A program made the translations under genes and the position numbers. A stretch of 38,314 nt of DNA from Candidatus Uhrbacteria bacterium RIFOXYB12_FULL_58_10 (GTDB taxonomy: Bacteria; Patescibacteriota; Patescibacteriia; UBA9934; GWF2-40-263). The notes under the pieces were generated by a model that was not told the DNA's origin, did no database searches, and saw only the letters and a list, made by a program, of their open reading frames with translations. Shown here piece by piece: positions 15,345 to 20,321 of the stretch (position 1 is its first letter; each line of letters starts with the position of its first letter). Where the stretch lies: contig CALRGA010000004.1 in NCBI GenBank assembly GCA_943357025.1, positions 1 to 38,314 on the forward strand. The letters are read 5' to 3'.

Positions 15345-15725
15345 ATGTCTTTCCTGCAGGCGCTGCGCCCTGCACCCGCGTCACTTTCTTTGAAGGCGGC
15401 AAAGAAAGTAACCAAAGAAATCCGCTCCGCCCGGCCATTCGCTCCTACGCCAGAACGCAAAAATCTGCTTCGGCTTCGGAACTCGCTTCTCGCCCGCGGG
15501 CTCGTACGCTAAGACAATCCTCGCTCGTCTGATGCCGCCAGCAGATTTTCACGTCCTGGCTGGGTCGCTCCGGCAGGGCGGCGACCGGATGGAGGTCTTT
15601 TCCATCCCATCCCGCCATGCAGACCGGGCGGCGGATTTTCCCGCCGTCGGGCGGGATCCCGCCCGACGGCGGGACTTTGCTCCAATCCCATTCCGCAAAA
15701 GAAAGTATGGCGGTGTGGCAGCCAG
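15345..15725. repeat. Hairpin-rich noncoding spacer element
   Basis: Series of inverted repeats: ctttctttg-N7-caaagaaag, ggatgga/tccatcc, and a 34-bp perfect palindrome at 15640-15673; no convincing CDS. Confidence 0.55.
15640..15673. repeat. 34-bp perfect palindrome, copy 1
   Basis: CCCGCCGTCGGGCGGGATCCCGCCCGACGGCGGG is exactly self-complementary; near-identical copy at 20075-20108. Confidence 0.9.
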
Positions 15726-19216: not shown

Positions 19217-20047
19217 TTACTTCTTTCGCTTCTTGGCAAATTTCCTGTGGACGAGAACGGACAGAATGGCCGCGAGGGTGGTAATGACGACCCATTTGGC
19301 GGCTGGCGGAATGTCGATCGTCGACGTTTCGGCTGGCGTCGGATACGTCTCGCCTTTCGGGGGTGGGAACCCGATACCCGGGACGACGTCGATCTCGGAG
19401 CTGTTTCCTTTTGCGACAGCCAGGACGACGCGCCAAGACGGCGTGACGTCGCCGGAGACTTCGGCGAAGGGGATGCTCATGGAAATCGTCTCGCCCGACA
19501 TCTCGAACGTCAACGTTGTCTCCTTGTTCGTCGCCCAGAAATCCGCGTCCTTGTTGTACCATCGGAAGTCGGTGTACCAGGGATGCTCGGGGGTCGTCTG
19601 GACCGTGAACTCCGCATCGGTTCCTACGCGCACTCCGCCGGGGGCGTTGTTCGCCGTATCGCCGTCCGCGTCGATGAGAATCGATAGCTGGATTTTCCTG
19701 TCGATCTTTTCTGGGATCGCGCCGCCGACGGTGACGACCGCGTCCCAGGTTTGCGCCGAGTCGTTCCTCGTCATCGAGACGGACGAGACGTCCCCGTAAG
19801 GCTCGGTAACCGATGTGACTCCGCCCTTGCGGTCCACGACGTCGCCGACCGGATCCTCGACGTCACCGTCGCCCGTAGAGATCTCGAATGCCTCGCGCTC
19901 CTCGGTCGTCGCAACCGGGGACAGCTGCGCGTCGGTGTAGCCGAGCGATCGCAAATAGTCGCTCGTGCCGGCGGCCGGGGCCGCGGCGAGGGCGAGAGAT
20001 GGGAGGAGGAGGGAGATGGCGATAAAAGTTTTTGGGATCGTCTGCAT
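19217..20047 (-). CDS. Secreted, C-terminally membrane-anchored hypothetical protein
   Basis: Signal peptide MQTIPKTFIAISLLLPSLALAAAP; C-terminal TM AAKWVVITTLAAILSVLVHRKFAKKRKK; start chosen at MQTIPK because the upstream frame runs through a repeat element. Confidence 0.8.
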   Translation of the reverse strand: MQTIPKTFIAISLLLPSLALAAAPAAGTSDYLRSLGYTDAQLSPVATTEEREAFEISTGDGDVEDPVGDVVDRKGGVTSVTEPYGDVSSVSMTRNDSAQTWDAVVTVGGAIPEKIDRKIQLSILIDADGDTANNAPGGVRVGTDAEFTVQTTPEHPWYTDFRWYNKDADFWATNKETTLTFEMSGETISMSIPFAEVSGDVTPSWRVVLAVAKGNSSEIDVVPGIGFPPPKGETYPTPAETSTIDIPPAAKWVVITTLAAILSVLVHRKFAKKRKK

Positions 20048-20051
20048 ATGT

Positions 20052-20223
20052 TTGGTCGGGCCGGCGGGGCTCGCCCCGCCGTCGGGCGGGGTCCCGCCCG
20101 ACGGCGGGAAACCCACGGCCTCCTGGGCATGGCTGCGCTGAGGCACAACGCCATGCCCGTTAAAGCGTCTCGGAGCCAAGCAGTTGGCTCCTCGCACCGC
20201 TTTAACTCCCGCACCAGGCGCGC
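20052..20223 (-). pseudogene. Degenerate tRNA-Pro 3' portion interrupted by two insertions
   Basis: Shares ttggtcgggccggcggggctcg (22 nt), aacccacggcctcctgg (17 nt) and ccaggcgcgc (10 nt) in order with the intact tRNA-Pro; a 36-nt palindromic insert lies in the T-loop and about 87 nt of hairpins in the anticodon loop; 5' acceptor and D-arm absent. Confidence 0.8.
20075..20108. repeat. 34-bp palindrome, copy 2
   Basis: CCCGCCGTCGGGCGGGGTCCCGCCCGACGGCGGG, one base different from 15640-15673. Confidence 0.9.
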
Positions 20224-20245
20224 GCTTATTACTTATATATTCCAT

Positions 20246-20321
20246 TGGTCGGGCCGGCGGGGCTCGAACCCACGGCCTCCTGGTCCCAAACCAGGCGCGC
20301 TACCAACTGCGCCACGGCCCG
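20246..20321 (-). tRNA. tRNA-Pro (TGG), CCA encoded
   Basis: CGGGCCG...CCTGG-TTTGGGA-CCAGG...GTGGGTTCGAGCCCCGC-CGGCCCG-A-CCA. Confidence 0.97.

Follow-up and report, generated by a model that had tools for sequence, protein, structure and literature searches.

A structured, non-coding insert in a broken tRNA-Pro copy: probable member of a Patescibacteria element family that targets tRNA loops

tRNA genes are classic landing sites of mobile DNA and, to our knowledge, the known bacterial landings involve a large element with an integrase. Short palindromic DNA is represented by the Rickettsia palindromic elements (RPEs), mainly in-frame insertions in protein genes. The elements described here may be likened to RPEs, being short, palindromic, devoid of ORFs, dispersed in several copies and situated inside genes, but their targets are loops of duplicated tRNA genes and intergenic palindromes, and they possess a conserved multi-helix core and duplicate their target; we know of no sequence relation between the two. 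There is also some likeness to palindrome-associated transposable elements with IS200/IS605 MITE-like ends, in that two hairpins are present per element, one of the two classes distinguished below (class A) lies after a short G-run and folding would be single-stranded. However, IS200/IS605 elements are not known to make a target duplication, whereas tRNA duplications are observed here, and the Y1 transposase (PF01797), detected by profile search in 49 of the 73 genomes of the order, is missing in 10 of 31 class B genomes, which are incomplete drafts. In archaea, tRNA introns transpose between tRNA genes (PMC10714607) and a mobile-element model of tRNA disruption has been put forward (PMC3293823). 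Several insertion positions and different tRNA genes are common to those cases and ours, and in Caldiarchaeum a tRNA fragment lies beside a tRNA, but archaeal introns leave a complete spliced gene, whereas at the present locus an intact copy adjoins a broken one lacking its 5' part. The archaeal islands treated in PMC9897764 occupy tRNA genes, hold about 9 to 23 kb of DNA and leave an intact tRNA with a displaced fragment as a direct repeat, an arrangement resembling ours except that here there is no cargo and the insert measures about 0.1-0.2 kb. Dada DNA transposons share site-specific insertion into tRNA genes but are eukaryotic, encode a DDE transposase and generate 6-7 bp target duplications (PMC3706591).

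The tRNA-Pro locus and its broken copy

The window, the whole 38,314-nt stretch of DNA analysed, comes from one contig of a draft 0.89-Mb genome that is 96% complete; all genomes used are draft assemblies, mostly metagenome bins. On the minus strand an intact tRNA-Pro is followed by a broken second copy, the parts of which are given in Table 1 in the order in which they are read, down to the ATG of a secreted-protein gene. tRNA positions 1-21 are absent from the second copy. A repeat search of the window detected collinear exact repeats of 22 nt (20052/20245) and 17 nt (20110/20267) and a third collinear repeat of 17 nt at 88% (20207/20284), the longest exact left-hand match being 11 nt. A sequence-only reading of this DNA had proposed three shared stretches of 22, 17 and 10 nt; their order and the first two lengths hold, while the third is 11 nt. 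The same reading had described a 36-nt palindrome within the T-loop of the copy, nested hairpins in an anticodon-loop insert (about 86 nt by our coordinates), a missing 5' part and the ATG at 20047, all of which were recovered. Folding of the minus strand of the locus gave z = -6.1 relative to shuffled sequences, with 0 of 200 shuffles folding as well.

Table 1. Features of the locus in minus-strand order, with the hairpins of the class A element listed beneath it
Feature	Coordinates	Strand	Basis
Intact tRNA-Pro(TGG), undamaged copy	20246..20321	-	ARAGORN and Rfam RF00005
Spacer of 22 nt between intact tRNA and second copy, without a terminator-like site	20224..20245	-	
Start of second copy, GCGCGCCTGGT, tRNA positions 22-32 (anticodon stem 5' strand)	20213..20223	-	exact 11-nt match
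GCGGGA, remnant of anticodon loop (TTTGGGA in the intact gene), adjoining the insert	20207..20212	-	sequence reading
Class A element, ~86 nt, 3' side of anticodon loop	20121..20206	-	covariance model R2 and G003 homologue
Class A first stem, GTTAAAGCG/CGCTTTAAC	20159-20167/20198-20206	-	
Class A hairpin H1, GGAGCCAA-CTGC-TTGGCTCC	20172-20179/20184-20191	-	
Class A hairpin H2, GGGCATGG..CCATGCCC	20125-20132/20151-20158	-	
Second copy resumes, tRNA positions 39-55	20110..20126	-	exact 17-nt repeat
GC-rich 36-nt palindrome between T55 and C56	20074..20109	-	inverted repeat 16+16 nt, 100%
End of second copy, tRNA positions 56-76 including CCA	20053..20073	-	exact 21-nt match within 22-nt repeat
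Downstream gene, 276-aa protein, signal-peptide-like N-terminus (neighbour outside the element)	19217..20047	-	ORF list

The downstream protein gave no match in a Pfam search. Its reading frame (19217-20245, minus strand) continues upstream without a stop through all of the element, as far as an ATG at 20245; initiation at 20047, where signal-peptide-like sequence follows, is more likely. A scan of the window detected neither terminator-like nor promoter-like sites between tRNA-Pro and this gene, a result that concerns the sequence and is silent on actual transcription.

Relatives carry this locus without the insert. In G003, a genome of the same genus, contig C29 is fully syntenic, sharing with the window the gene order tRNA-Gly, secreted-protein gene, tRNA-Pro, 378-aa gene, tRNA-Ile and tRNA-Phe, and there tRNA-Pro directly adjoins the secreted-protein gene. 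The second tRNA-Pro copy is likewise absent from G004:C7 and G001:C12, bringing the same-genus genomes with an empty site to three. Thus, the insert and the duplication were either gained in the lineage of the window or lost in the others.

The T-loop palindrome belongs to a separate repeat family, other copies of which occur in the same genome, in G003 and in G004, mostly away from tRNAs. A further copy of the GC palindrome, 97% identical and away from any tRNA, is present in the window at 15637-15673. The site of the T-loop palindrome in the broken copy, T55|C56, is also the insertion point of class B (below). In G096, which belongs to another family, a single tRNA-Pro(GGG) copy (L252) has its anticodon loop occupied by class A and its T-loop interrupted, at the point used in the window, by a two-hairpin insert of a different kind, and at the end of contig C48 of the window's own genome (L037:1281-1400, G000:C48) the palindrome forms a tandem array inside the T-arm of a tRNA-Pro(CGG)-like 3' end. 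The combination of anticodon-loop and T-loop inserts found in the window is therefore not unique.

Class A and class B elements in other genomes

The class A insert of the window has a homologue in G003 (80% identity, E 8.0e-20). The tRNA copy that holds it is not of the same tRNA but of tRNA-Pro(CGG), and the insert again occupies the anticodon loop; there the broken copy is the 5' half (positions 1-31) and the intact tRNA-Pro(CGG) lies after it. A covariance model of the class A first stem and H1 (R2) matches the window at 20155-20212 with an E value of 2.0e-16, the window copy being a seed member. In most class A members the first stem reads GTCGAGGCG/CGCCGAGAC and includes a tandem G-A mismatch, for which the window copy has A-T pairs (GTTAAAGCG/CGCTTTAAC). 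The tRNA-sense strand is probably the strand that folds, since the G-A mismatches exist on that strand only. The right end of the window element, GCCCAGGA, overlaps tRNA sequence.

Within the order, R2 detects 30 class A copies, spread over 12 of 73 genomes and with 11 in G012 alone; it also matches 27 of 287 genomes of the class. Inspection by eye combined with exact matching covered 29 class A places, namely the window, five others of the order and 23 class-level loci, and in 18 of these the host is a tRNA-derived copy. Ten lie in the anticodon arm: the window, G003, G016, G020, G289 (L243), G263 (L245), G236 (L251), G096 (L252), G257 (L255) and G037 (L175), the last being called by reading, with its tRNA cut by the contig end. 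tRNA-Pro accounts for nine of the ten, in G003 (CGG), G016 (CGG) and G020 (GGG) as well as in G289, G263, G236, G096 and G257, which belong to other families. The D-loop is occupied at L248, L260, L262 and L263, with Phe, Met and Ile copies among the hosts, the variable region at L246 and L253 (Leu and Met) and, in weaker cases, the T-arm at L247 and L258. The insertion point usually follows GG or GGG, and the GG(G)-before-insert order seen at 20207..20212 recurs in other class A copies. This would be consistent with a target rule in which GG or GGG is supplied by proline anticodon loops (NGG-G37) and by D-loops (G18 G19), and the NGG plus G37 of their anticodon loops is probably the reason for the excess of proline tRNAs. 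In G012, class A copies are found in loops of inverted repeats other than tRNAs, for example CCTGAGCTTGTCGAAGG/CCTTCGACAGGCTCAGG, so that hairpin loops generally may serve as targets; of its 11 copies, which include loci L054, L089, L095, L183, L187, L196 and L197, many occupy long inverted-repeat loops.

The H1 core, GCCAACNGCTTGGC, gave 52 matches in the 73 genomes of the order compared with 6 for a reversed control. Part of these matches represent a longer element, class B, which measures 132 nt in 10 of 13 seed sequences. Its structure comprises 45 pairs, with 93.6% of cells paired compared with 74.3% (sd 1.1) in shuffles, and double-sided changes are observed at 30 pairs in 103 cells, the shuffles giving 17.9 and 30.6. 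When the structure was slid along the sequences, paired cells fell to about 35% in every version, although this test is partly circular, and the shuffle test less so, as the structure was drawn from the same sequences. Matches to the class B model (R1) occur in 31 of the 73 genomes of the order and 69 of 287 at class level; the phylum-level search, in which other classes are represented among the matches, gave 27 of 335 genomes. Within the order, the search detected none in the window's genus. Classes A and B both contain an H1 hairpin whose loop region reads AACTGCTT, together with another hairpin that bears an AT bulge of two bases (CGATGT..ACCG), and on inspection they are taken as related modules.

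Among 94 distinct class B copies, 81 have a tRNA gene at most 300 nt upstream on the same strand, with a median gap of 39 nt and with neighbours spanning 35 anticodons. Class B enters the T-loop at T55|C56 and the tRNA 3' end is duplicated, up to 64 nt. The direct repeat mostly begins 21 or 18-19 nt before the tRNA end, which corresponds to C56 with or without an encoded CCA, and in several copies it extends 54-64 nt, past the terminator. At L134, L139, L140, L153 and L155, class B is flanked by 54-62 nt repeats containing tRNA 3' end and terminator; at L139 the repeat runs on into another tandem unit. The terminators on either side of class B at tRNA-Met are in opposite order in L105 (G065) and L107 (G067), as if tandem copies had recombined. 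On their left side, many class B copies hold the tRNA 3' end in reverse complement, in some cases reaching through CCA. The class B 5' strand was initially assigned as copied from the tRNA 5' end, an assignment that did not hold, as L138, L146 and L147 pair through CCA, identifying the strand as the reverse complement of the 3' end.

Mobility and alternative explanations

Class B cores at tRNAs of different amino acids within one genome share a mean identity of 67.4%, and those at the same anticodon in different genomes 58.6%, averages that are a rough guide only because the genomes are unequally related. The near-identical pairs are the real evidence: cores at different tRNAs of one genome reach 94-98% identity, and the Pro and Asn copies of G292, between which the T-stem arms also appear to have travelled with the element, are 97.9% identical in the core. 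Near-identical copies at unrelated sites are found for class B cores and empty sites for the class A locus of the window. The case for mobility is good for class B, and class A is likely to be mobile as well.

Two observations bear on the level at which change occurs. G-U pairs constitute 1.8% of element pairs compared with 5.3% of tRNA pairs at the same loci (Fisher p about 5e-9, the cells not being independent). Between copies with cores at least 90% identical, 2.8 of the 9 H1 pairs differ on both sides and 0.4 on one side, and the H1 hairpin seems to be renewed as a whole. In L164/L202 (G292) and L224/L225 (G080), cores are 98-99% identical and H1 stems differ at several pairs, nearly all of them compensated. 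Jumps between perfect stems are expected from template switching in replication, which makes and repairs such stems (PMC8794818), or from exchange of whole hairpins. Combined, the few G-U pairs and the H1 jumps favour events at the DNA level, while being compatible with an RNA function, and the conserved purine-rich internal loops look RNA-like.

It is this RNA-like character that an alternative we regard as unlikely builds on, namely that the elements are functional structured RNAs, class B being tRNA-like (an acceptor/T-stem mimic with a CCA end) and class A a tRNA trailer. They would act as regulators of the processing or charging of tRNA or of the downstream gene, and would have been duplicated together with tRNA pieces; a structured regulatory RNA had also been among the options of the sequence-only reading. 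Strong covariation in class B, its constant 132-nt length in the 10 of 13 seed sequences, the conserved purine-rich loops, a 5' strand that complements the tRNA 3' end, CCA included, often with a second terminator, and the succession of tRNA, element and gene without a separating terminator in the window would all be accommodated. The patchy presence of the elements, with class B missing from the window's own genus, would not, nor would the scarcity of G-U pairs, the wholesale replacement of H1 between near-identical cores or the class A copies in non-tRNA palindromes. RNA function and a mobile-element nature are not mutually exclusive. The anticodon loop and the T-loop, the two sites occupied in the window, are known integrase sublocations in tRNA genes, reportedly described by Williams in 2002, a study cited in PMC9897764. 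This lends some weight to the view, held out by the sequence-only reading, that an att-like scar is involved. In that case a tyrosine recombinase would have inserted an island at the tRNA that was later lost, leaving a partial tRNA copy. The direct repeat of the tRNA 3' part, as expected of an att site, is explained in this way, but the view is improbable: the copies are only about 0.1-0.2 kb apart and enclose non-coding structured DNA in which an island with an integrase was not found, the same covarying structure recurs each time and across 35 anticodons, insertions also occupy the D-loop and variable region, and the repeats extend through each individual tRNA's terminator.

Template switching in the palindrome-rich tRNA genes might by itself produce partial tandem copies and hairpins as a by-product of replication, with no mobile element involved. 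It creates and mends perfect stems (PMC8794818), and the left arms, many of which match the tRNA 3' end in reverse complement, extend the terminator palindrome. That one conserved core and its H1 loop recur at tRNAs unrelated to each other, and in many genera, is beyond its reach, however, which makes it very improbable as a full account; it can only explain arms and duplications. A one-off tRNA pseudogene was to be inferred, according to the sequence-only reading, from empty sites in relatives combined with a lack of other copies. Empty sites are observed, yet many other class A copies exist and the reduction therefore fails. Its proposal of a palindromic element targeting tRNA loops is well supported by the homologous inserts in other tRNA loops of many genomes; overall, the interpretation of that reading is partly supported.

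Several further candidates were considered. Against a tRNA intron or a group I or II intron, the window copy lacks tRNA positions 1-21, its T-loop is interrupted and no Rfam intron match was obtained. An integron attC site was raised by the GCGTTAG ends in G071 and is unsupported for other copies: the R boxes RYYYAAC / GTTRRRY, sought by eye, are absent in classes A and B, and GCGTTAG-like ends occur only in the divergent G071 copies. These copies (L077, L108, L109 and L110) consist of divergent H1 elements followed by CCGCGTTAG, slightly resembling an attC end, and one lies directly behind tRNA-Gln. An IS200/IS605-derived MITE would agree with the hairpins. As a partner enzyme of the elements, neither Y1 nor a reverse transcriptase (RVT_1, PF00078) co-occurs consistently, RVT_1 also being missing in 10 of 31 class B genomes (drafts) and both being absent from G037, which carries class A and five class B matches. 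As the drafts are incomplete and copies may be relics, these gaps argue only against a strict need for the enzyme in the same genome.

A probable family of tRNA-loop elements and what it would mean

We consider it probable, though well short of certain, that the feature in the window is a short, non-coding, hairpin-folding insertion element of a Patescibacteria family that targets tRNA loops with tandem duplication. The family is apparently undescribed, and the window feature is most likely a member of it rather than a one-off pseudogene. A literature search, with subscription papers mostly outside its scope, retrieved no published description of a Patescibacteria element in tRNA genes; Rfam 15 matched only tRNA and 16S rRNA in the window at the gathering threshold, and a search of eight class B loci relaxed to E<=5 returned nothing but genuine tRNAs and noise below threshold. 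This preferred reading draws on direct observation of structured inserts that are homologous and occupy fixed positions in the loops of many different tRNAs, direct repeats of tRNA sequence, empty sites and near-identical cores at different tRNAs of one genome. Against it are counted the lack of a consistent Y1 or RVT_1 partner, the position of the G012 class A copies outside tRNAs, the RNA-like purine loops and the draft state of all the genomes.

Under the insertion-element reading, the main target of class A would be the anticodon loop, on its 3' side, with D, variable and T loops as further targets and a preceding GG or GGG as the typical context; class B would enter the T-loop between T55 and C56. 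Insertion would be accompanied by tandem duplication of part of the tRNA, leaving one intact tRNA gene. Copies would arise by transposition through an enzyme acting in trans, the tRNA-sense strand may fold as single-stranded DNA while moving, and template switching during replication could keep the stem arms perfectly paired. One partial tRNA-Pro copy in the window houses both class A, at its anticodon loop, and a second palindrome, at its T-loop; as positions 1-21 are missing and there is no clean short target repeat, tandem duplication followed by loss could also have produced this arrangement. More tentatively, and in our view less likely than not, the elements may be a new kind of mobile element, phylum-wide and based on ssDNA or RNA, which recognises folded tRNA-gene loops and carries perfectly paired hairpins that can be exchanged, H1 being renewed with every jump. 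Target duplication would let the host tRNA survive, and classes A and B would share modules.

On the insertion-element reading, cargo-free pieces of about 100 nt are found in every type of tRNA loop, with intact tRNA copies alongside, in a phylum of mostly unknown biology. They offer a system in which one can test how a cell survives insertion into an essential gene present once, and how perfect stems renew themselves. For annotation, the consequence is that fragments resembling tRNAs ought not to be called genes in these genomes.
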